Below are positions 838-36,780 of a stretch of DNA of 53,741 nucleotides, piece after piece. Position numbers and translations under genes: made by a program. The notes under the pieces were generated by a model, which was given only the letters and a program-made list of their open reading frames with translations, searched no databases and was not told the DNA's origin. How positions within the stretch are numbered: the stretch's first letter is position 1; the number at the start of each line of letters is the position of its first letter. Source of the stretch: Microcaldota archaeon (lineage in GTDB: Archaea; Micrarchaeota; Micrarchaeia; Micrarchaeales; Micrarchaeaceae); the NCBI GenBank assembly GCA_021807115.1, contig JAKAPJ010000008.1, forward strand, positions 1 to 53,741. Direction: 5' to 3'.

Positions 838-849
838 ACTTTATATATT
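838..849 (+). promoter_or_regulatory. TATA box of the AAA-AAA-Lon gene
   Basis: ACTTTATATATT is a strong archaeal TATA element. Initiation about 25 nt downstream (near 870) would leave a roughly 40-nt leader carrying the Shine-Dalgarno AGGAGG at 901-906. Confidence 0.6.
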
Positions 850-909
850 AGTGTCGGATAGAGTGTAACCTTATTGTTGCGCGGAGGCGCACGGGGAGTG
901 AGGAGGCAT

Positions 910-3813
910 ATGGTTGAAAAGGAGGGCGGACATGCCAAGCCTGAGGATAGCGCAGCAAAAAGGGCCAGGAAGGATGCAATGTCCAGGCCAGACACCGCAG
1001 TGCGCTACCTTTTCAGCAAGAAATATAGGAATGACCTGAAGAGCCAGAAGGCGGCGGAGGCCGCGCAGGGGGTGGGCGCGGGGGAAGAGGAGGTTTACAC
1101 TGGGCTGTTTGGCATGCAGGGGCCGCCAGGATACAATAAAAAGACGCCGGCCGAGACGCTTAGGGCCCAGGTATCCGAGGCGGGCCAGATGGTTACGCCG
1201 TATGCGGAGAGGGCGGCGGCGCTTGTGGGCTACGACAGGATCATGGAGGAGATCAGGGACGCGGTACAGTACCACATTATCAAGGATACGGGCTTCATAC
1301 AGGCGAGAGGGGCGGCTGTTCCCCCACAGATCTTCATAATCAAGGGATCGAGCGGCATGGGTAAGACCGCGCTGGTTAACGCGGCCATGTACGAGGCGTG
1401 GCAGATGGGAAAAGAGAGCGGTGTGGCGGTCTATTCCAAGACCCCGGAGGTTTCAAAGTTCAGCAACAAGATGTATGGTGAGTCAGAGAAACAGACCGAG
1501 GTAATATTCGATGATTCGTTCAAGAGGCCCACGGTGCTGTTCATAGACGAGGCTCAGGCGGTATTGAACAAAGGCGCCAACCCCGATCTTAACGAGGGCA
1601 ATACCGATGCCCCGGCGAGGACCCGCGACATGATTATACAGAAGATAAACCAGATGGCGGATTTCAAGAAACCGTGCGTGCTCATACTCGCAACTGACGA
1701 CTTCGAGATACTGCCCGACCCTATAAAGAGGAGGGCGGCAGGGGGCACGTTCGACCTGAACCTGGAGCTGACGCGCAATGATCTGGTGGAGATAACGAGG
1801 AGGGCCCTTGAGCGCCACTCCATGAGCTACCTGCCGGCGGCGGGGGTGCTTGATGCCGTGGAAATGAGCATAAAGGGCGAGGGCCACTCGCACCTTACAC
1901 CGGCCGACGTGACCACTGCGGTGAACAAGGTCGATAGGGGGAACAGGAAGCCCATCCGCGCTTCGGAGTTCCGCAAGCTCGCAAAGGGGGAGGCGGCCAA
2001 AAGGGAGCAGGAGGTGCCGAAGGTGACACTGGACGACTTCAGGAAGCTCAAGGGGCTCAGGGAGTACGATGAGAGCAGGAAGAGCAAGGATATCAGCCGG
2101 ATGATATCGAAAATAAAGCCCACGCTCACGCTTGACGACGTCGGCGGGCAGTCGCCCATGAAGGAGGACATGCTCACTGACGTGGAGCTTGCCTTGGACC
2201 CGGAAAACACCAAGCAGGCAGGGGCATCGCCTATACGAGGCATAATGCTGTACGGGCCCCCCGGCACGGGAAAGACATATGTTGCCAAGGCGGTTGCTGG
2301 GGAGGTAAATGCCACTGTGTATGAGGTAAGCGGCTCGGAGATAATGAAGCCGTATTATGGCCAGAGCGACAAGTTGATAAGGGATCTTTTTGCTGACGCT
2401 AGAAAGAATGCGCCGTCCATGATCATATTTGACGAGATAGACGCCATCACTGCGGACAGGGCGTCACTTGGCGGCTCGGATGGCAGGCACACGGTAATAA
2501 CCACGCTGCTTTCCGAGATGGACGGACTGAACCCGAAGGACGGCGTTGTGGTGATTGGGACAACGAACATACTGGATTCGGTGGATCCGGCATTCAAGAG
2601 GCCGGGGAGGTTCGACAGGCTACTGCATGTAGACCTGCCTAAAAGTGACGCGGAGGCGCTTGAGGTAATAAACGTTCACATGAGAAAGTGCATGGGCATT
2701 CTCGATCCTTCCGCAACCAACGAGAGCGTGCTTGCGCTTTTCAACAAGAGGACTTTCTCGCCGGCTAGAATAAAGAGGGTTGTAAGCGATGCCGCGCAGC
2801 TGAGGCTGAAGGAGCTGAATGCCATCCGCAGGATAACAAACTTAGGTGGTAACAACCAGCAGGGGCTAGAAAATGCCATGAAAAAGTACGGTGGGGATTT
2901 CAAGCGCGCATGCGACAACCTCGGAATACCGCTCAAGGATCGTGCGACGGAGAAAGACCTAACTCCCGAGGTATATGAAGCGCTACGGCATGTGGACCCA
3001 AACAAGTACCATATAACGATGGCGCATTTCAGGACCGCACTTGACATGATGAAGGACGAGATGTTTGACGAGATAAGGGGCGTGACGGCGGCGCTCAGGG
3101 GCAATGCCCCAAAGCCCGAAGTAGGGAAGGTATACGGGCTCTCCGTACTGAGCGACAACGGCGGCGGTGCAGGGACCGAGGGGATGGTTAGCATAATAGA
3201 GTGCAAGGGCGACCCGGGCGCCGGAAGGGGCGCGGCGAACGTTGTCGGCAGCGAGATAGCCAAATCCATCAAGGAAAGCGCAGAGGGCGCGAGGGTGTTC
3301 ATCAATGAGCAGTCAGGCTGGGCCATGAGGCACCATGAGTTCACGCTCGACTTCGTCACTGCGATGAAGGGGGTTGACAGGGAGATGATAGCCGGGCCTA
3401 GCGCGGGGGCGGCGATGGCGCTCGCACTTTACAGCAGGGCGACGAACACTGAGGTGCTGCCGAACGTAGTGGTAACTGGTGGCATAACGATAAACGGCGA
3501 AATCCTGAAGGTGGGGGGGCTGGACCACAAGGGGATGGGAAAGATGGTGGCGGCCATTGAAACTGAGGGGGTGGACACCATTGTCATACCCAAAGCGAAC
3601 TACGACGGGTTAAGCGCCGAGGACATTGAATCGTTTTCCAAGCACAACCTGAAGGTGGTGCCAGCAAGCACGTTCTGGGACGTTGCGAAGGCGGCACTTG
3701 TAGGGAACCCTGGCGAGCAGCAGGCAAAGGAGGCGCTGAAAAACTTTGAGAAGCTCAAGCAATATCAGCGCACCGAGGGCCGCGATGCGGCGCAGCCCCA
3801 GGCAGAACAGTGA
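910..3813 (+). CDS. Tandem AAA+ ATPase fused to a Lon-type (S16) protease domain
   Basis: 967 residues from the ATG at 910, chosen because AGGAGG lies four bases upstream; a longer TTG-initiated frame from 874 would read through that site. Module 1 has Walker A GSSGMGKT (146-153) and Walker B FIDEA (DE at 213-214). Module 2 is of the Cdc48/FtsH class: GPPGTGKT (449-456), IIFDEIDA (DE at 508-509) and GTTN...RPGRFDR with its arginine-finger region. The C-terminus is a Lon proteolytic domain with catalytic Ser in GPSAGAA (S831) and Lys in GMGKMVAA (K878). No membrane helix is seen, unlike archaeal LonB, which has one AAA+ module and is membrane bound. It is inferred to unfold proteins with a p97-like double ring and degrade them in an attached serine protease chamber. 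Confidence 0.9.
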   Translation: MVEKEGGHAKPEDSAAKRARKDAMSRPDTAVRYLFSKKYRNDLKSQKAAEAAQGVGAGEEEVYTGLFGMQGPPGYNKKTPAETLRAQVSEAGQMVTPYAERAAALVGYDRIMEEIRDAVQYHIIKDTGFIQARGAAVPPQIFIIKGSSGMGKTALVNAAMYEAWQMGKESGVAVYSKTPEVSKFSNKMYGESEKQTEVIFDDSFKRPTVLFIDEAQAVLNKGANPDLNEGNTDAPARTRDMIIQKINQMADFKKPCVLILATDDFEILPDPIKRRAAGGTFDLNLELTRNDLVEITRRALERHSMSYLPAAGVLDAVEMSIKGEGHSHLTPADVTTAVNKVDRGNRKPIRASEFRKLAKGEAAKREQEVPKVTLDDFRKLKGLREYDESRKSKDISRMISKIKPTLTLDDVGGQSPMKEDMLTDVELALDPENTKQAGASPIRGIMLYGPPGTGKTYVAKAVAGEVNATVYEVSGSEIMKPYYGQSDKLIRDLFADARKNAPSMIIFDEIDAITADRASLGGSDGRHTVITTLLSEMDGLNPKDGVVVIGTTNILDSVDPAFKRPGRFDRLLHVDLPKSDAEALEVINVHMRKCMGILDPSATNESVLALFNKRTFSPARIKRVVSDAAQLRLKELNAIRRITNLGGNNQQGLENAMKKYGGDFKRACDNLGIPLKDRATEKDLTPEVYEALRHVDPNKYHITMAHFRTALDMMKDEMFDEIRGVTAALRGNAPKPEVGKVYGLSVLSDNGGGAGTEGMVSIIECKGDPGAGRGAANVVGSEIAKSIKESAEGARVFINEQSGWAMRHHEFTLDFVTAMKGVDREMIAGPSAGAAMALALYSRATNTEVLPNVVVTGGITINGEILKVGGLDHKGMGKMVAAIETEGVDTIVIPKANYDGLSAEDIESFSKHNLKVVPASTFWDVAKAALVGNPGEQQAKEALKNFEKLKQYQRTEGRDAAQPQAEQ

Positions 3814-4204
3814 TTTTTCTGCGAACATGAGGCCGTATTGGCAATATGCGGCCCGCATACTTGCGCATTGCCGTAACGGTAAGATCGCCTTTCTCTTCGT
3901 GGTCGGCGAGCACTATTGTTGCTATGCCGGCAAAAAGCAGCAGTAGCGCGGAATAGAGGAACGTTTCAATCTCTGCGCCCAGCACATGGACGTCCAGCAT
4001 GTTCTGCTGGCCATACACCCATGCGCGCGAGCCCAGTGCGGGCGGCTCAAGTATCGCAGTCAGCATTATCCCCAGCAATGCCATGGCCCCCAGAAACCTC
4101 GCGTAGGGCCGCAGGTCCCTGCGCACAAGGGCGAGCTCGATGAGCAGCGCGCCTCCGGCAAAAAGGAATATCGACATCAGGTATGTCAGCTGCTGGAGGC
4201 TCAC
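3755..4204 (-). CDS. Lycopene cyclase domain membrane protein, second subunit (CrtYd-like)
   Basis: 149 residues starting at a GTG whose last two bases and the following A are the stop codon of the upstream gene (GTGA overlap, plus-strand 4201-4204). It has about three hydrophobic segments. LTAILEPPALGSRAWVYG and GAEIETFLYSALLLLFAG resemble the W.Y and IE-core repeats of heterodimeric bacterial/archaeal and fungal CarRA-type cyclases. With its partner it would cyclise the ends of lycopene toward beta-carotene in the membrane. Its polar C-terminal tail overlaps the 3' end of the convergent AAA-AAA-Lon gene by 59 bases. Confidence 0.75.
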   Translation of the reverse strand: MSLQQLTYLMSIFLFAGGALLIELALVRRDLRPYARFLGAMALLGIMLTAILEPPALGSRAWVYGQQNMLDVHVLGAEIETFLYSALLLLFAGIATIVLADHEEKGDLTVTAMRKYAGRILPIRPHVRRKITVLPGAAPHRGPRCADIA

Positions 4205-4533
4205 CTTCTCACCTTCTTGGGCATCAGGAACCTTCCGAAGCGCGCCCTTATTATCAGGACCATGGTCGTAACCAGCATGCCGAGGAATATCATGAAACAG
4301 TATTCCTCTATTGGCAGGGTGAAGATGTATATGCCCACCACGCTGTGCACCGGGAATGACCATGTGTTTGTCGCAAGTGCAAAAAAGTCCCAGGGAACGC
4401 CGATAGCCATTGACAGCAGGGCGGATATCGCCAGCGTCTTTTTGTGGCGGATTACGAGGCTGCCGTGCGTTGCCCACAATACGGCAAGGGGTAGCCATAC
4501 GTAGACTGCGAGCCATGTGAGGTATGCAGGCAT
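4201..4533 (-). CDS. Lycopene cyclase domain membrane protein, first subunit (CrtYc-like)
   Basis: 110 residues with three membrane helices. The signature G.PWDFFALATNTWSFP followed by IFTLPIEEYCFMI is the hallmark of the CrtYc/CrtYd/CarRA lycopene cyclase domain, including the PIEE acidic motif. It is translationally coupled to the second subunit by a 4-base overlap, so both halves should be made in equal amounts. No carotenoid synthase, desaturase, dioxygenase or rhodopsin gene lies in this window, so the lycopene source and the use of the product are unknown. A minus-strand TTTTAAGA near 4566 could be its TATA box. Confidence 0.85.
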   Translation of the reverse strand: MPAYLTWLAVYVWLPLAVLWATHGSLVIRHKKTLAISALLSMAIGVPWDFFALATNTWSFPVHSVVGIYIFTLPIEEYCFMIFLGMLVTTMVLIIRARFGRFLMPKKVRR

Positions 4534-4623
4534 TGAGAACCAACGCAGGTTTGTCTGAGCGGCATCTTAAAACCCTTTTGCACGCATCCGTCAATCAGAC
4601 CGCGGCGCATTGCGCTGCGCCGC

Positions 4624-29993: not shown

Positions 29994-30014
29994 CGGGTGC
30001 ACTGAATGCACCCG
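29994..30014 (+). terminator. Terminator-like hairpin after the methyltransferase gene
   Basis: CGGGTGCA and TGCACCCG form a perfect 8-bp stem around loop CTGAA, three bases after the stop codon. No T-run follows, so termination is a guess; the position is the main support. Confidence 0.4.
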
Positions 30015-30188
30015 TGGGCTCGGGACGAAAGGCGCAATGGCGGTTATTGCCCGGGGCGCATCGCCGTATGCAGAAACGCCCCGAATGGCCGGTGGGCTGT
30101 CTTATATCCCCAGATACGATTTGATATGGCTGCTACAGGGGGTAGGGACAAAAGGGGCATATAACTTTCTGCATTAATAGCATCATGA

Positions 30189-30677
30189 TTGCCGATTTAT
30201 TCGAAGTGGGGGGTGGCGGGCAAAAAAGGCAAGGGCGTGTTCGCAACGCGCTTTATCCCCAGAGGCACTTTTGTATACTTCGATTGCAAAAAATGCAAAA
30301 TGCTCAATTCAAAGAGGGAATGGGTGAAATCGTCCGAGGGAGGAATAGGGTTTTTTGATGTGCACGGAAGATACTGCAACGACCAACTCTGCTATACAAA
30401 CCATTCCTGCAATTCAAACGTTATGGGCCTTGGCAACTGCGTTGATATCGTAGTAAGGGACATTAAAAGGGGCGGAGGGCAGACAGAGGATTACAGGATA
30501 CTTTGCAACAATGAAATTAATTTTTCCGGGTTTGGCGGCGGTTGCAAATGCAGGGAACCGGATTGTATTAGGGATGGCACATTCTGTCGCCCGCCGACTA
30601 AGGAACTACAGTGGGTTTGGAGCAGGAAGATAAATGGTGCATTACTGTTGGCAAGCGCCGTGGATCAGCCCATCTAG
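30189..30677 (+). CDS. SET-domain protein (putative protein lysine methyltransferase)
   Basis: 162 residues. TTG 30189 is the only sensible in-frame start. GKGVFATRFIPRGTFVYFD is the SET-N strand pair with the GxG SAM site, NHSCNSNV the NHSC.PN motif, and CKCREPDC a post-SET zinc motif. The usual E(L/I)T.DY is EINFSGF, so the conserved catalytic Tyr is not obvious at that position. SET proteins methylate lysines of chromatin or ribosomal proteins; in archaea they are sporadic. A frame continues after the stop (next entry). Confidence 0.8.
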   Translation: MPIYSKWGVAGKKGKGVFATRFIPRGTFVYFDCKKCKMLNSKREWVKSSEGGIGFFDVHGRYCNDQLCYTNHSCNSNVMGLGNCVDIVVRDIKRGGGQTEDYRILCNNEINFSGFGGGCKCREPDCIRDGTFCRPPTKELQWVWSRKINGALLLASAVDQPI

Positions 30678-30683
30678 GCCCAA

Positions 30684-30822
30684 TTGTTAAAAGAGCATAA
30701 GGAGCTTTTGCAGTTCTTCGACAAAAAAACGAAGCCGAAAGCTCGAAGAATTGATGGCAAAACTGGAAAAAGGCAGGGGTGCGGCCCATGCCGAATATAA
30801 GCTAGAGAGGGATAGGGACTAG
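30684..30822 (+). pseudogene. Possible frameshifted small coding remnant
   Basis: After the SET stop, the same frame reads LLKEHKELLQFFDKK from TTG 30684. A run of seven A (30723-30729) then separates it from another frame reading KLEELMAKLEKGRGAAHAEYK, ending at TAG 30820-30822. One base fewer in the A-run would join the two into a helical peptide of about 45 residues. This could be decay, a sequencing error in the homopolymer, or programmed slippage. Confidence 0.35.
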
Positions 30823-30970
30823 AGCGCACTCGGGATGAGACGCCTGATGTCGGCCTGCTTCAAAAACGCAATTGGCTAAAAATAAGTGGTGCAAAGCGTT
30901 CATTTGCTTACAAGGCGTATGCCTCAGATGCAGTCGTAACGCTTTATCTCATTTTTGCCGAAGGGTGCCG

Positions 30971-31150
30971 CTAACCCTCTTTTAGGTAAAGTTTAGTCTC
31001 ATCTGCCTTAAACTCTGCGCCCTTATGCGCGCCGCTGCAAAATGGCTTCTTGGTTGAATGCCCACACCTACACAGAGCGTATTCTACCTTGCCATCTATC
31101 TTGACAAGCAATGGGCCGTCCTTGGTAAACTCAAATTCTACTTTTGCCAT
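30971..31150 (-). CDS. CDGSH-type iron-sulfur protein (short form)
   Basis: 59 residues read directly from the sequence. CRCGHSTKKPFCSGAH supplies the CDGSH cluster ligands C27, C29, C38 and H42 (3 Cys, 1 His), with CSGAH in place of CDGSH. It should bind a [2Fe-2S] cluster and act in electron transfer or redox sensing. A TATTTAAG element on the minus strand around 31176-31183 is a well-spaced TATA box. It lies at the left side of the AT-rich island. Confidence 0.88.
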   Translation of the reverse strand: MAKVEFEFTKDGPLLVKIDGKVEYALCRCGHSTKKPFCSGAHKGAEFKADETKLYLKEG

Positions 31151-31319
31151 AGTCTCACACAGATACTTCTACCCAGCATTCTTAAATACATTCGGGTTAT
31201 CTCATCCCTTGCTGCGCAAGACTGGATTTGAAGGGCGTCGTCCGAAGCAGACGTTGAGCTTAAAGTAGTACGCCCGAATGATATTCTTTAATATGCTTCG
31301 ATATCGTTTGGCACTTTAC
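31151..31319. other. Gene-free AT-rich junction at the left side of the tRNA-Asn island
   Basis: It contains the CDGSH promoter and, at 31242-31268, a string similar (23 of 27 positions) to 33263-33289 at the edge of the 79-bp repeat, beginning CCGAAGCAG and ending TTAAAGTAG. This may be an old insertion scar. No gene seen. Confidence 0.4.
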
Positions 31320-32267
31320 CTAAGTTTTTCTTTTCAGAAATTCCTTCACCTGCAGGTAATATTGCTTGAGGGCAAAGTCGACAAAGGTTTTTGGATTATT
31401 AGTTTCAACAGAGGCCACTAAGGCATCAAAATATGCCTCTTTGTTAGCAGAGATGTTGATTAAAGGGAAATGGTTATCTAGCAGTGTTTTGTTGAAGATC
31501 AATCTGCAAATCCTTTTATTGCCATCCAAGAAAGGATGAATCCTGTATAAGACATAATGGGCCACCGCCGCCTTCTCTATAGGGTTGAGCTCGCTTTTGC
31601 CGTACCATCCAAAAAATTGCTTTAACAAAGGGATAATCTTGCTATGATGTGGTGGACGGTATCTTAATTCCCTGTCCCCAGACGATCTGGCTGATCTTTT
31701 CCTATACAGATACACCTGCTTTTTCCTAAAGTCCCCTGGAGTTTTCACCTCAAATTTTGCCATTATTGTACGATGCAGTGCAAGGAGGTAATTCTGGTCT
31801 AGTTCATGGGTCCCTTTTATTGATTCGACGGCCTGAAGCATATTTTTACTGATTTGCTCGCGCAATGTCATTCCAGAGGTCTTAATTAATGCGTTTTTAA
31901 CATCAATTAGATCAACATCGACCTCTTCTGTTGTCAGTGTAGTGAGTGTGAAAATCACAGTGCTATCTATATCGTATTTTCTCCTTTTTAGATTCGTCAA
32001 TTTCTGGTATTTTTTATCGAACGCTATGCTGAACAGTATGCTCTTTATGACTTCGTCTTTGTTCATTAGCGAATTAGAATAGTCTTTGCCCGATAGTCTT
32101 TTAATCAGCTCGACCTTGAACTGGCTTTCGATTTTTTTTAAGGATTTATCGGTGGGTTTTTTTACTCCAATATACTTGCTAAAGCTTCTCGATTTGTCAG
32201 CTAAAAAATAGCTTAAGAATGAATAGTAGTAGTTTCTTTCTTTAATTTTTTTTACTACTAAGGTCAT
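31320..32267 (-). CDS. Fic-family protein (putative AMP-transferase)
   Basis: 315 residues. The Fic core motif HPFLDGNKR (244-252) with catalytic His is intact, as are the upstream LLALHRTIMAKFEVKTPGDFRKKQVYLYRK and the helix AVAHYVLYRIHPF. The N-terminal 130 residues are helical. At the expected position of the inhibitory [ST]xxxE[GN] helix the sequence is DSTVIFTLTTLT, without the Glu. Fic proteins attach AMP or other nucleotides to Ser, Thr or Tyr of target proteins, often as toxins. Low GC unlike the flanking genes suggests transfer. Confidence 0.92.
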   Translation of the reverse strand: MTLVVKKIKERNYYYSFLSYFLADKSRSFSKYIGVKKPTDKSLKKIESQFKVELIKRLSGKDYSNSLMNKDEVIKSILFSIAFDKKYQKLTNLKRRKYDIDSTVIFTLTTLTTEEVDVDLIDVKNALIKTSGMTLREQISKNMLQAVESIKGTHELDQNYLLALHRTIMAKFEVKTPGDFRKKQVYLYRKRSARSSGDRELRYRPPHHSKIIPLLKQFFGWYGKSELNPIEKAAVAHYVLYRIHPFLDGNKRICRLIFNKTLLDNHFPLINISANKEAYFDALVASVETNNPKTFVDFALKQYYLQVKEFLKRKT

Positions 32268-32274
32268 AATATAG

Positions 32275-32348
32275 TTAGGTAGATAAAAATATTTAATCCT
32301 ATCTACCTAAAGTTAGGTAGATAAAACTATCTCGAATAATCTACCTAA
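32275..32348. promoter_or_regulatory. Two tandem dyads overlapping the Fic promoter
   Basis: TTAGGTAGAT at 32275-32284 faces ATCTACCTAA at 32301-32310; the same pair recurs at 32313-32322 and 32339-32348. Each dyad has 10-base arms and a 16-base spacer; copies are 38 bases apart. The first spacer contains the AT-rich TATA region for Fic. This looks like a cooperative repressor operator. Confidence 0.75.
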
Positions 32349-32463
32349 TCTTCGTAAAAACATCGCCCAATGCAGGAGCGTTGCCGAAGGTTGACTGCCT
32401 ACTCGATATTGTTTAATATCATTCGATATTTCTGTCACTTTGCTAGAACAGTCATTTTGAGCG

Positions 32464-32718
32464 TTATTTCTTATAAATTTCACGCCGGTGGCCTACATCC
32501 AGCACCATAATCAACTTGGCCGTTTCATCTATATTGACTATTAGCATGTAATCACCAGCCCTAAGGCTCAATTCCGAAAGTCCAGTTAGTTTTTTTACGA
32601 ATGGTTTAGGATTTTCTGCAGCTAGGTTTAGTCGTTTTGCTATTTGCATTTGGAATGTTTTGCTCAGACCTAGAAAGGCCTTTTCTGCCAACTTCGAAAA
32701 AATGACCTTATAGGCCAT
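32464..32718 (-). CDS. RelE/ParE-superfamily toxin
   Basis: 84 residues. MAYKVIFSKLAEKAFLGLSK, the basic middle (KKLTGLSELSLRAGDYMLIVNI) and the C-terminal VLDVGHRREIYKK give the RelE fold pattern, including the GHR...Y end typical of mRNA-cleaving members. It overlaps the antitoxin gene by 11 bases and follows it in the same operon. Confidence 0.92.
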   Translation of the reverse strand: MAYKVIFSKLAEKAFLGLSKTFQMQIAKRLNLAAENPKPFVKKLTGLSELSLRAGDYMLIVNIDETAKLIMVLDVGHRREIYKK

Positions 32719-32953
32719 CTAACCCCGCCCGCTTCTTTACTTCATCGAAGCTAACGTATTTGCCTGCCCTTATCTCATTTAGAGATTGCTCGATGTGTCT
32801 CAAAGTTTCTGGGCTCAATTCTTCGCTGTCAGTTTCAAGGTGAATCAGCCGTTCGATAACATCATTATAGGTTTCCCTGGGATGCAATTTACGTGCATCC
32901 AGCGCCCTTTTTACCCTGCGGTCTACCTGTATGGTAGTTTCCGGTTTCTCCAT
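32708..32953 (-). CDS. RelB/RHH-type antitoxin
   Basis: 81 residues. TTIQVDRRVKRALDARKLHPRETYNDVIERLI is a ribbon-helix-helix DNA-binding region; the acidic C-terminal part (LSPETLRHIEQSLNEIRAGKYVSFDEVKKRAGL) would wrap the toxin. It precedes and overlaps the toxin gene, the usual antitoxin-first order. A tandem repeat in its promoter is the likely operator. Confidence 0.88.
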   Translation of the reverse strand: MEKPETTIQVDRRVKRALDARKLHPRETYNDVIERLIHLETDSEELSPETLRHIEQSLNEIRAGKYVSFDEVKKRAGLDGL

Positions 32954-32959
32954 ATTATT

Positions 32960-32993
32960 TATAACGTATTATAGATATTTATAGCGTTCTATA
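32960..32993. promoter_or_regulatory. Tandem operator of the RelBE-like pair
   Basis: TATAACGTATTATA (32960-32973) and TATAGCGTTCTATA (32980-32993) are direct repeats of TATARCGTNNTATA, 20 bases apart, just upstream of the antitoxin start. The spacing suits two RHH dimers; the AT-rich part also serves as promoter. Confidence 0.6.
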
Positions 32994-33193
32994 AACAATT
33001 ATGCGTGGTACGCCCAAGCTCAAACCTGCCCGGTAAACTCCAGGGATGGAACCATCTGGGGGATAGGCGTTTTCGCCACGGACTTGGAAGAAACAAAGTA
33101 TATACGATGAGGATCCCGGAGTAAAAGCGGGAATTTTTAGGTACGAACTTCATAAGGGGAGGGGAGTACCAGGTAGCTCTCTAAAATAGGCTT
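32994..33193. other. Degenerate non-coding stretch in the island
   Basis: No intact gene. Short open pieces occur in different frames (for example DEDPGVKAGIFRYELHKGRGVP near 33108-33165 on the plus strand), which could be remains of a lost gene. No RNA gene seen. Confidence 0.35.
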
Positions 33194-33272
33194 TTGCAGG
33201 TTAAATCCCCTAAGCACTTCCAGAAATTTGCCAATTTTACGACGACAAAATAAAAATTCCGCCCGATGCAGG
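33194..33272. repeat. Left copy of the 79-bp direct repeat (att-like)
   Basis: It matches 35111-35189 at 78 of 79 positions (A at 33203, C at 35120). The last 13 bases, CGCCCGATGCAGG, equal the 3' end of tRNA-Asn read on the other strand. The 1.84 kb between the copies holds the VapBC-like pair and the kinase gene. Confidence 0.9.
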
Positions 33273-33313
33273 CGTGGAGCTTAAGGTAGAATCCCCGGAG
33301 TATATTGTTTAAC

Positions 33314-33724
33314 TCATAATGAGCCAACAAGGGCAATGAGCTCTTTTGTAGTGGCGATTTTGACCCTTTTTTGTTGTCCAAAATCGTTATCGTTGCTCCA
33401 AATTATGGTGTCTTCTTGCAATGCACACGAGAGATACAGCCAATCCTTCGGGTCCTTAATAAGACTGGCCGCAGCTGGCAAAAACGGTTTAAGATCCCTA
33501 TCTGGTACTAGCGTTAGCTGCCCAAAGACCTTCAGTATAAGGTGGTGTAGCTCCTTTTCTGGCAACCCAGATTTTTCCTGTACTTCTAGGATATGCTGTA
33601 TTAGCTCATCCACAATAAATTCTGGAGCAAAAAGCGACAGCGCAGGATTGAAGAAGAGCTTTCTCGTCGTCGAATCCTTTATGAGGCATGCAAACAGTAC
33701 GTTTGCATCAACCGTTACCTTCAT
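33314..33724 (-). CDS. PIN-domain toxin (VapC-like)
   Basis: 136 residues from ATG 33724 (MKVTVDANVLFACL), inside the end of the antitoxin gene (17-base overlap). A longer frame starts at 33754. The PIN acidic residues are D6, E40, D94 (KDPKDWLYLSCA) and D112/D114 (SNDNDF). Expected to be a Mg-dependent ribonuclease neutralised by the upstream-encoded partner. Confidence 0.9.
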   Translation of the reverse strand: MKVTVDANVLFACLIKDSTTRKLFFNPALSLFAPEFIVDELIQHILEVQEKSGLPEKELHHLILKVFGQLTLVPDRDLKPFLPAAASLIKDPKDWLYLSCALQEDTIIWSNDNDFGQQKRVKIATTKELIALVGSL

Positions 33725-33950
33725 GGAGAAGCGCCTTTGCGTGTTTTGCCGCACTCTTTGATATCTTTTCGTTGATTGATTTCCAATCCCTCCAGCTGAA
33801 CTTGCTTCTTTTGGCTATATTTTCTGCCTCCCTAAACTCTGCAAGTTTCTGCTCTATGACGTTCCTTACCGCGCTTGACCACTTAACAGTAGGATGCCTC
33901 TTCATCTCCATCTTGAGCTCCCTGCTAATCACGAGGGTAACATTTGGCAT
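33708..33950 (-). CDS. VapB-like antitoxin
   Basis: 80 residues. PNVTLVISRELKMEMKRHPTVKWSSAVRNVIEQKLAEF fits an RHH/AbrB-like DNA-binding start of the archaeal VapB type ('V.W..V.R..I...'), and the charged C-terminal helix would contact the PIN toxin. It overlaps the toxin start and lies behind a 19-bp palindrome. Confidence 0.85.
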   Translation of the reverse strand: MPNVTLVISRELKMEMKRHPTVKWSSAVRNVIEQKLAEFREAENIAKRSKFSWRDWKSINEKISKSAAKHAKALLHEGNG

Positions 33951-33954
33951 TAAA

Positions 33955-33973
33955 TCACATAAATATTATGTGA
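33955..33973. promoter_or_regulatory. 19-bp palindromic operator of the VapBC-like pair
   Basis: TCACATAAATATTATGTGA has perfect 8-base arms around ATA. It begins 5 bases upstream of the VapB start, between the AT-rich TATA region (33979-33995) and the coding sequence, where a bound antitoxin would block transcription. Confidence 0.7.
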
Positions 33974-34089
33974 AGGAACATATTTATTATTTATTATTTA
34001 TTGTTTAGAGCTAGGCAATTGCACGCATCGGGTTTAAGGTAGATTTTTGATTAGGGCCGGTTATTAGAATTATCTAACAATATATCCAC

Positions 34090-35085
34090 ATGTATATCAG
34101 GAGGAAGGATTTAAACGCGATTCTTGAAGCCTATGGGATAACGCCCCACAGTTGTACAAAAACTGCAAGAGGACTTGTTAATTACAACTGGATTGTAGAT
34201 GCGGGAAAGAACAAATACATTTTAAGAGGGTCGCGATTCAAGAAACGGAAGGAATTGGAATTTGAGATAAAATACCTAAATTATTTAAAAACGCACGGAT
34301 TTGAGTATCAGATTCCGAGCGCAGTAAGGAGCAGGGCAGGGCACTTTGTGAAAGAATTTTCCGGCATAAATTTCTGGGTCTACACCTATATTGATGGCGA
34401 GTTTAAAAGACATCCGGAAAGGCAAGAATTGAGAGCCATAGCAGTGATGATGGGTAAATACCACACAATACTTGAACAGTCTCAGTTTGGGGTCTCCCAT
34501 AAAAAAGATATTATACGGATGAATTCCATCATCACCGGAATAAAAAGACAGTCTAATAGGCTAAGAGGAAACTCAAGTCATATTGATAGTTTATATCTAA
34601 AATACTCGAAGATCCTGGTGCCTGCTGCAGAAAACTTATGCCTAGAAGGCTACTCTAAGCTTAAACGGTATCCACTGCACAGAGATTTTGGAATGAGAAA
34701 TTTCTTGTGGAACGGGAAACAGCTTACGGGCATTATAGATTTTGAGAATGTTAGTGGCCCAGCAGAACCATTAGTAAGAGACATATCATCGTTCTTCCAG
34801 TACCATTGTAGAAAAAGAAAATATGAAATGGATTTAGATATGACCAGATACTTCCTGGCCAAATATTTGAAATATAGAAGGATTACAGCCATGGAAATCA
34901 AACTTATTCCCGATTTAATGATAAGCATGTATGCAGAAGATTTCGACTTTGGTTACTGGCGGCTTAAAAATGATCCAAAACGTGCCAGCGCCTCAGAATT
35001 CGAGCTTTGTGCCAAGTCTGCCCGCTGGTGTGCTGCAAATAGCGATAGGATAATTCAAAACCTGAAAGCGAGTCTAGAAAATTGA
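34090..35085 (+). CDS. Aminoglycoside phosphotransferase/homoserine-kinase-II-like kinase
   Basis: 331 residues. The N-lobe (LVNYNWIVDAGKNKYILRGSRF) is followed by the catalytic loop PLHRDFGMRN (H197, D199, N204) and metal-binding IIDFEN (D217, E219). This is the APH/choline-kinase fold; real substrates in archaea are usually unknown small molecules, and antibiotic resistance should not be assumed. The gene is AT-rich and lies inside the direct-repeat-bounded cassette, divergent from the VapBC-like pair, so it is probable cargo. Confidence 0.85.
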   Translation: MYIRRKDLNAILEAYGITPHSCTKTARGLVNYNWIVDAGKNKYILRGSRFKKRKELEFEIKYLNYLKTHGFEYQIPSAVRSRAGHFVKEFSGINFWVYTYIDGEFKRHPERQELRAIAVMMGKYHTILEQSQFGVSHKKDIIRMNSIITGIKRQSNRLRGNSSHIDSLYLKYSKILVPAAENLCLEGYSKLKRYPLHRDFGMRNFLWNGKQLTGIIDFENVSGPAEPLVRDISSFFQYHCRKRKYEMDLDMTRYFLAKYLKYRRITAMEIKLIPDLMISMYAEDFDFGYWRLKNDPKRASASEFELCAKSARWCAANSDRIIQNLKASLEN

Positions 35086-35110
35086 GGATTTAACCATAAC
35101 AAACAGACCC

Positions 35111-35189
35111 TTGCAGGTTCAATCCCCTAAGCACTTCCAGAAATTTGCCAATTTTACGACGACAAAATAAAAATTCCGCCCGATGCAGG
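35111..35189. repeat. Right copy of the 79-bp direct repeat, overlapping the 3' end of tRNA-Asn
   Basis: The copy begins with TTGCAGGTTCAATCCCC and ends 13 bases inside tRNA-Asn. The first part (GCAGGTTCAATCCC, 35113-35126) is identical to the T-arm of the tRNA but on the opposite strand, so a 14-bp inverted repeat with 35186-35199 is also present. Confidence 0.9.
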
Positions 35190-35248
35190 GATTGAACCTG
35201 CGACCTACTGGTTAACAGCCAGTCGCTCTACCACTGAGCTAATCGGGC
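35177..35248 (-). tRNA. tRNA-Asn (GTT)
   Basis: Acceptor GCCCGAT/ATCGGGC with discriminator G, D-arm GCTC/GAGC, anticodon stem ACTGG/CCAGT with loop CTGTTAA (anticodon GTT), T-arm GCAGG/CCTGC. No CCA encoded. Its 5' ten bases contain the stop codon of the upstream same-strand gene. ACATATATG at 35288-35296 inside that gene may be its TATA box. Confidence 0.96.
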
Positions 35249-35934
35249 TTGAAAAACGGGAATGGTTCAGCTAGATTTACAACCCTAACATATATGTATG
35301 AGTGGTCGCCGAACGTGTTAGTGGGCTCCACCCTATCGTTGCTGTAGTTGTACCTGAAGAAGCAGAATTCCCCGCCTTCGTCCAGCCTTGAATATGTAAG
35401 AAACTTGAGTTCATCCTCGTCTATCAGCCCGAACGCCGCCACATAGCGGGCCTGCTTGTAGCTGAACACGTAGACCTTTCCCATTGTTTCATGGTCCATG
35501 GCCTTGGTTATTACAGCCTTTATGAGCTGGCTGGAGTCCCTGGCCTCTATACAACTCGCATCTATGCGCGGCTTCTTTTCCTCGAATGGCACATTTTTCA
35601 GCTCCAATATGGGTATGCACTGTGCGTTGCCGCCCTGCGGGCCGGATGGCTGCACTGCCATGAATTCGACGGATTCCTCGCCGAATTCGGACTTTGGCTT
35701 ATAGAGCAGGCAGTTTCCTATCTCCTTTGACTCGCAGTAGAGCACGATCCTGCACTCCCCTATTTTTGCCCCAGGCCACATCAGCCGATAGCCGCCCTGG
35801 TTTTTTTGGGCAAATATTGGCCTTATCAAATCCCCGAACGTAGATACGTTCCTTGCCATGTCGTGAACCGACCTAAGCTTAACGAATTGTGAGGGTATTG
35901 CCATTTCACGCTTGCCACCCTTAACGCCTGCCAT
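35239..35934 (-). CDS. Uncharacterised protein ending inside tRNA-Asn
   Basis: 231 residues; ATG 35904 (MAIPSQFVKLRS) is an alternative start. I do not recognise the family. It is soluble, mixed alpha/beta, with several Cys (GECRIVLYCESKEIGNCLLY; SCIEARD; FCFFRYNYS). The final codons CCC GAT TAG are bases 2-10 of the tRNA, so mRNA and tRNA overlap by 10 bases. It is the first gene upstream of the tRNA and 12 bases downstream of a surface-protein gene. Confidence 0.65.
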   Translation of the reverse strand: MAGVKGGKREMAIPSQFVKLRSVHDMARNVSTFGDLIRPIFAQKNQGGYRLMWPGAKIGECRIVLYCESKEIGNCLLYKPKSEFGEESVEFMAVQPSGPQGGNAQCIPILELKNVPFEEKKPRIDASCIEARDSSQLIKAVITKAMDHETMGKVYVFSYKQARYVAAFGLIDEDELKFLTYSRLDEGGEFCFFRYNYSNDRVEPTNTFGDHSYIYVRVVNLAEPFPFFKPD

Positions 35935-35946
35935 GCAAATTACCCC

Positions 35947-36780
35947 TCAGCCACCAAAAAGCTTCCCTATGAGGTACATAACAGCGTATGCAGGCTCGTA
36001 TATTATCGGGAACGCTATGGCGCCCTCGCCTATGGCAGCATAGTCGTTAAGCACTGAGGCCTGTATCCCTATCTCTATATTGCTCTTGGCTGAAACAAGC
36101 GGACTGGCCGTGGACGTCACCTGCATAACCGCGGAGTAGTTGCCAGGCTCGTTTTCGTATATGGAGTAGGAGAAGTTACGCTCTGTGTGGTGCAGCGCTA
36201 TTACTGTTTCGGTCAGGTTCCATGCCGGCAGGCCCACTGCCTCTATCTGGAATGGGCTGTCCGAAACCCCCGTGTTGTTTATCGACACGGTTATTGTGGC
36301 AGGCTCGCCGGGGCCGGTGCTTATGCTGGTGGGGGTGACGCTAAGCGCGAACACGTTTGGAGTCACGTTTATGTACGCGGTGAAGTTGAGCTTGCCAAGC
36401 CTTGAGTAGTTGCCTATGTTCGTGGCGGTGAGGTTGAGTTCGTATGTGCCGTTTGCCGCAGTCGGGGCGGTGGTTATCTTTACAGTCTCGTTGGCGTTGT
36501 TTAGCGAGGAGTTCTCCACGACCCACCCCTGTGGCTTCTTGGTGACGTTCAGCTCGTTCCAGCCCCTTGGAAAGACGGCGCCGGTCGCATTGGAGGTGGT
36601 GGCGGATATCGCTATGGCAAAGGTCTGGCCCGGTCCCACCTTCCCCAGAAAGACGCTGCCGCCATCGTGCAGAGTGGAGTTGAACGGCTCCAATACACTG
36701 ACATAAGTGGATCCTGCAATGGCCGGATATACAGCCAGAGCGAGAATGCACGCTGCGATGGCACACGTATGCGTATTCAA
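35947..36780 (-). CDS. Secreted beta-sandwich protein with C-terminal anchor
   Basis: 277 residues. A signal peptide (CAIAACILALAVYPAIAGS) precedes two or three Ig/CARDB-like beta domains; TISVS-like strands such as SVTPTSISTGPGEPATITVSINNTG are typical of the COG1470/NEW3 type. Many N-x-S/T sequons are present. The hydrophobic C-terminus (FPIIYEPAYAVMYLIGKLF) may anchor it. Likely a cell-surface or adhesive protein. Confidence 0.75.
   Translation of the reverse strand: MNTHTCAIAACILALAVYPAIAGSTYVSVLEPFNSTLHDGGSVFLGKVGPGQTFAIAISATTSNATGAVFPRGWNELNVTKKPQGWVVENSSLNNANETVKITTAPTAANGTYELNLTATNIGNYSRLGKLNFTAYINVTPNVFALSVTPTSISTGPGEPATITVSINNTGVSDSPFQIEAVGLPAWNLTETVIALHHTERNFSYSIYENEPGNYSAVMQVTSTASPLVSAKSNIEIGIQASVLNDYAAIGEGAIAFPIIYEPAYAVMYLIGKLFGG

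Follow-up and report, generated by a model that had tools for sequence, protein, structure and literature searches.

The locus and its gene product

The window analysed here, meaning the whole 53,741-nucleotide stretch of Microcaldota archaeon DNA, belongs to a draft genome (1.18 Mb, 44 contigs, 86% complete) in which its contig is C36, and it carries one uninterrupted frame that opens at ATG 910 and encodes a protein of 967 aa, hereafter P0001 (Table 1). Pfam searches with P0001 returned the AAA family (PF00004) in two stretches at 8.8e-54 and Lon_C (PF05362) at residues 724-931 (8.3e-18, 65.1 bits against a cut-off of 21.1), and both Walker A/B pairs are intact. The order AAA-AAA-Lon_C in a single polypeptide, which a sequence-only reading of this DNA had proposed, is thereby borne out, as is its placing of the second module, D2, in the Cdc48/FtsH class with an arginine-finger region. 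The first module, D1, is without the second arginine finger and shows GTFD in place of GRFD. No membrane segment is predicted in P0001, whose maximum 19-residue hydropathy is 1.24 compared with 3.26 for the LonB of the same genome. Single-sequence AlphaFold2 runs without an alignment gave poor models, with pLDDT values of 43 for the Lon domain and 47 for D1.

Table 1. Features of the P0001 gene and their positions in the window
Feature	Position	Strand	Remark
TATA-like box TTATATATTA	841..850	+	About 60 nt 5' of the start codon; recognised by its motif only
Shine-Dalgarno-like AGGAGG	901..906	+	3 nt before ATG 910; from sequence
Gene for AAA-AAA-Lon protein P0001, 967 aa	910..3813	+	
AAA module D1, residues 105-346	1222..1947	+	Divergent classic-AAA type
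D1 Walker A GSSGMGKT, residues 146-153	1345..1368	+	
D1 putative pore loop KMYG, residues 187-190	1468..1479	+	Aromatic; PYYG in the G309 homologue; from alignment, function inferred
D1 Walker B VLFIDE, residues 209-214	1534..1551	+	IIFMDS in paralogue P0002, Glu lost
AAA module D2, residues 405-634	2122..2811	+	Cdc48/PAN/FtsH type
D2 Walker A GPPGTGKT, residues 449-456	2254..2277	+	
D2 putative pore loop YYG, residues 482-484	2353..2361	+	From alignment, function inferred
D2 Walker B IIFDE, residues 505-509	2422..2436	+	
D2 arginine-finger stretch KRPGRFDR, residues 563-570	2596..2619	+	
Lon S16 protease domain, residues 724-931	3079..3702	+	
Predicted catalytic Ser831 (GPSAG)	3400..3402	+	
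Predicted catalytic Lys878 (Ser+47)	3541..3543	+	Preceded by a 4-residue insertion when compared with other Lons

The convergent neighbour at 3755-4594 (-) contains lycopene-cyclase-like pieces (PF18916 at 9e-5, below the cut-off). Membrane Lon affects carotenoid content in Haloferax (PMC4343526), and the adjacency of this neighbour to the P0001 gene may be due to chance. Elsewhere in the window, positions 30000-36000 form a low-GC island (0.43 versus 0.55), possibly of foreign DNA, which holds a Fic/DOC-domain protein at 31323-32267 (-), an APH-type phosphotransferase at 34090-35082 (+) and a tRNA-Asn at 35177-35248.

Related proteins in the host and in another phylum

Four Lon_C loci were found in the host genome, on contigs C36, C25, C12 and C19. 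The locus on C25 encodes a paralogue of 1039 aa, P0002, with the same domain order, 40% identity to P0001 over residues 84-945 and a Lon_C score of 64.7 bits. Its D2 and protease domain are intact and hydropathy analysis revealed no hydrophobic segment, and its D1 is degenerate, with a one-residue insertion in Walker A, a Walker B reading IIFMDS rather than IDE, in which Ser takes the place of the Glu, and a changed arginine-finger region. These motif losses suggest that D1 of P0002 probably binds ATP without hydrolysing it.

Contig C12 carries a canonical LonB, which has a strong membrane segment and whose AAA+ module matches AAA_5, Mg_chelatase, AAA_32 and LonB_AAA-LID. Cdc48 (contig C1, 750 aa) and two proteasome subunit genes are also encoded, and no PAN-like single-module frame is among the AAA matches listed for this 86% complete genome. 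The question of lonB and the proteasome raised by the sequence-only reading is thus answered: since the host keeps LonB, Cdc48 and proteasome genes, P0001 replaces neither lonB nor the proteasome there.

Two further host proteins were noted in passing. The locus on C19 (L007:4953-6857) encodes an S16 (Lon_C) protein of 635 aa that lacks an ATPase module. It has a signal-like stretch at its N-terminus and a hydrophobic helix at its C-terminus, and its motif GPSGG is similar to the one in P0001, yet its Lys lies at Ser+43. Contig C12 also encodes a protein (L034:742-3594) in which membrane helices at the N-terminus precede two AAA modules; it has no protease domain and is distinct from both Cdc48 and the AAA-AAA-Lon family. 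Proteins of this type (920-960 aa) appear to be widespread, with frames of about 930 aa in most relatives, the sequence having been read in the host and the others recognised by frame length.

A full-length homologue in a 1014-aa frame was found at 2.4e-33 in an unrelated phylum, in the closed single-contig archaeal genome G309 (1,418,269 bp), which is probably that of Ca. Odinarchaeum LCB_4 (Odinarchaeia). The two proteins are collinear, with 31% identity over 862 residues (E 2e-111), and the G309 protein scores 46.8 bits for Lon_C. The class of G309 is represented by two genomes in the set and the gene occurs in both, being cut by the contig end in the second, G331. Both Walker A motifs, the D2 Walker B, the catalytic Ser and Lys and the linker KIKP..DDVGG are kept between the phyla. 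The G309 protein starts with several N-terminal helices that are hydrophobic by hydropathy, so this form would be anchored at its N-terminus; the lack of a membrane anchor proposed by the sequence-only reading therefore holds for P0001 and is not general to the family. A Lon_C search of the closed G309 genome gave this protein as the sole match, indicating that the AAA-AAA-Lon protein is the only Lon there.

The Ser-Lys dyad and its spacing

The domain order, the nucleotide-binding motifs and the dyad can be read in three full-length sequences, P0001, P0002 and the G309 protein, on which the family rests. The distance from Ser to Lys is 47 residues in 3/3 of them, and the residue at Ser+43 is K, R and R, respectively, whereas in all other S16 proteins compared (LonA, LonB and others) the Lys lies at Ser+43 and position +47 is Ala. 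When an HMM of the family was run against PDB chains with hmmsearch, Lys878 fell on the Lys that is catalytic in solved archaeal LonB, the alignment opening a four-residue gap after GG[L/T], and the KxxAA helix motif matched that of other Lons via a clean 4-residue insertion. Based on this alignment and on the conservation of the +47 Lys in every full-length member, Lys878 is the right dyad Lys, and the Ser831/Lys878 pair named in the sequence-only reading proves to be in register. Lys874, at the canonical Ser+43 position, was considered as the dyad Lys and rejected, since it is Arg in both homologues and Lys878 is the residue that the HMM aligns with the catalytic Lys. The 47-residue spacing is a diagnostic difference of the AAA-AAA-Lon family.

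Some Lon-like proteins are non-peptidases, and the shift of the Lys may alter or abolish catalysis. If the shift disables the dyad, P0001 would be a double-ring unfoldase or chaperone with a weak or inactive protease, the S16 ring being merely structural. The departure from the 43-residue spacing of every other S16 protein compared speaks for this reading, as does the stress that PMC9569914 lays on the identical Ser-Lys distance of LonA and LonBA. It is nevertheless judged improbable: Ser and the +47 Lys persist in two phyla and through a duplication, whereas position +43 drifts to Arg, a pattern of selection on +47, and the helix motif described above lines up with other Lons through a clean insertion.

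Affinity of the AAA modules and the Lon domain

Both AAA modules of P0001 match PF00004 and, at the sequence level, Cdc48, PAN and FtsH, these named families all far below their cut-offs. The scores were 211.6 bits against 802.65 for TIGR01243 (CDC48), 206 against 500 for TIGR01242 (PAN) and 197 against 600 for TIGR01241 (FtsH); the Lon models gave 66.4 against 516.6 for TIGR00764 (LonB) and 67.7 against 608 for TIGR00763 (LonA). In a small AAA tree the new D1 modules group together in a single clade (100/100). Both D1 and D2 are set apart from Cdc48 D1/D2 and from FtsH, a separation that is weakly supported (76/85) and involves long branches. In the Lon-domain tree the new domains branch outside LonA plus LonB (98/95). 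The G309 domain has a long branch and joins the secreted S16 protein, which leaves both the placement and the monophyly of the Lon domains uncertain in the tree; the monophyly is founded instead on the full-length collinear alignment.

These comparisons also bear on whether P0001 is an ordinary Cdc48 that recently gained a Lon domain and otherwise keeps Cdc48 biology, namely the extraction of proteins for degradation. TIGR01243 is collinear with both modules (112-716) and the best PDB relatives are Cdc48/VAT, yet the score of 212 falls far below the cut-off of 803, the Cdc48 N domain is missing, and D1 and D2 lie, albeit weakly, outside the Cdc48 D1/D2 clades. Moreover, the host has a separate Cdc48, and the fusion is old enough to be common to two phyla at 31% identity, leaving such an origin with little probability. 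Accordingly, the proposal of the sequence-only reading that P0001 merges the roles of Cdc48/PAN and Lon stands in part: a self-contained double-AAA Lon is supported by sequence, while a simple Cdc48 plus Lon fusion is contradicted by the missing N domain, the weakly separate grouping of the modules and scores far below the CDC48 and PAN cut-offs.

Distribution and origin

The AAA-AAA-Lon architecture was encountered in 3 of approximately 1,000 archaeal genomes searched (the host, G309 and G331), so that the many homologues of the same order which the sequence-only reading had counted as evidence against itself did not turn up. Searching with P0001 at 1e-55 gave no match in the other genomes of the family (85 searched) or the phylum (301 searched), and the gene is missing from 13/13 same-genus and 71/71 further same-family genomes. 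A profile of the C-terminal third found ordinary LonB as the best other matches in the host phylum, at about 1e-19, and short LonB frames (444-529 aa) from this phylum, considered as members, were rejected for their canonical GDSAS motif and Lys at Ser+43. Of 395 genomes sampled, about 94 belong to phyla other than that of the host, and the sample yielded G309 as its one new full-length member; among about 700 archaeal genomes beyond the host phylum none like P0001 was found apart from G309 and G331. The phylum of G309 (228 genomes) and a further large archaeal phylum (390 sampled) otherwise gave matches of LonB length only. Scanning genome contigs with the C-terminal alignment, for which poor peptide patterns were picked, returned only a gammaproteobacterial LonA and is uninformative as to bacteria, scans of viral contigs gave no match, and tblastn against plasmids and phages gave no record at 80% query cover, the listed matches spanning the AAA modules only. 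The frames of two LonB genes (L023 in G284 and L028 in G200) begin with an intein-like C-terminal end (GNLFANGILVHN|SGGLG), which suggests that inteins occur in archaeal LonB.

An IleRS gene 4 kb downstream of the P0001 gene has its best matches in the host genus and order (55%), and misbinning of the contig was judged unlikely on this ground. That the gene comes from a chimeric contig or a contaminant, as its absence from 13 same-genus and 71 further same-family genomes and the 44-contig draft state of the assembly might suggest, is scarcely credible beside the same domain order on a second host contig and in a closed genome of another phylum, the host-like IleRS and the single uninterrupted frame with its own start signals, and as regards the fusion itself an artefact is already refuted. 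A chance fusion is likewise ruled out because collinear homologues exist. The gene occurs in a single species of a phylum that is well sampled and, elsewhere, in a class of two genomes; this pattern, together with the IleRS matching the host genus and order, fits a horizontal gain followed by duplication, and the host probably acquired the gene in this manner.

Proposed mode of action and significance

Considered as a whole, the evidence makes it likely that P0001 is a self-contained ATP-dependent protease that represents a new, double-ring Lon subfamily. Six subunits would assemble into an S16 proteolytic ring with two AAA rings stacked on top of it, D1 uppermost and D2 below. The aromatic pore loops, KMYG in D1 and YYG in D2, would grip the substrate as D1 and D2 hydrolyse ATP, and the substrate would be processively unfolded and threaded into the Lon chamber, where Ser831 is predicted to act as the nucleophile and Lys878 as the general base. 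In P0002 the D1 ring would be passive or serve as a gate, and P0002 may act alone or mix with P0001. In the host this enzyme would be an addition to LonB, Cdc48 and the proteasome, and the membrane-anchored form of the other phylum, which is probably Odinarchaeia, would be the only Lon there.

A wider account, for and against which the balance is about even, would make this the first single-chain AAA+ protease known to have two ATPase rings. Its S16 domain would have been joined to a tandem classic-AAA motor rather than a Lon-type motor, and its catalytic Lys would have moved by one helical turn. The membrane-anchored form would have replaced LonB in Odinarchaeia, and the soluble form would have been acquired by one small archaeon and duplicated into a pair with an active and a passive D1.

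The division of Lon into classes A, B, C and BA presupposes a single AAA+ module in each chain and a constant distance between Ser and Lys. The P0001 family breaks both rules and shows that a Cdc48/FtsH-type motor can be the partner of an S16 protease. Comparing P0001, whose D1 is intact, with P0002, whose D1 is without the Walker B Glu, offers a natural test, within single chains, of the contribution of a second AAA ring to a degradation machine. As the only Lon of a closed, probably Asgard, genome, the family also bears on membrane proteostasis in Asgard archaea.

Comparison with known Lon and AAA systems

By its Lon_C domain and predicted dyad the P0001 family falls within the S16 Lon superfamily, from which it departs in the 43-residue spacing, and judged by its motifs P0001 shows the features of none of the named Lon subfamilies tested. 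The Lon types A, B, C and BA and the domain combinations described in the consulted parts of PMC9569914 and PMC2605481 include none with two AAA modules of such kind, in agreement with the earlier suggestion that a double AAA motor sets P0001 apart from known Lon proteins, and searches of the available literature for the AAA-AAA-Lon architecture found none.

Archaeal LonB (MEROPS S16, for example 1z0e of A. fulgidus), the closest solved relative of the P0001 protease domain, likewise carries a C-terminal S16 Ser-Lys domain on its ATPase chain. LonB has one AAA+ module of another clade and a membrane anchor between Walker A and B, whereas the P0001 family has two classic AAA modules and is either soluble (host) or N-terminally anchored (G309); the LonB-style insertion, seen in host LonB, is in neither P0001 nor P0002, and the 25 best Pfam hits of P0001 include neither LonB_AAA-LID nor AAA_32. 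The serine motif of LonB is GDSAS at a spacing of 43, compared with GPS[AL]G at 47 in the family, and in place of [E/D]GDSA[S/T], as the catalytic motif of LonB is defined in PMC2605481, P0001 reads AGPSAG. The Pro preceding the catalytic Ser is shared with the type A active site of LonA and LonBA, in contrast to the Asp of LonB and LonC. P0001 differs from LonA and LonBA in its tandem classic AAA modules, its spacing of 47 rather than 43 and its lack of the LON N-terminal domain, the substrate-binding domain of LonA, which is not among its best 25 Pfam hits. LonC is a soluble S16 protease like P0001, but has a single ATPase module whose ATPase residues are lost according to PMC9569914, while P0001 keeps Walker A and B in two modules.

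Cdc48/p97/VAT share with P0001 two tandem classic AAA modules, D2 being the most similar by sequence; P0001 differs from them in lacking the Cdc48 N domain, in having its own protease domain and in its two aromatic pore loops, as also found in G309. PAN delivers substrates to a separate 20S proteasome, whereas P0001 has a protease domain of its own. FtsH likewise unites a classic AAA motor and a protease in one chain, and the G309 form is N-terminally anchored as FtsH is; FtsH, however, combines one AAA module with an M41 zinc protease, whereas P0001 combines two modules with an S16 serine-lysine protease that matches Lon_C and not M41.
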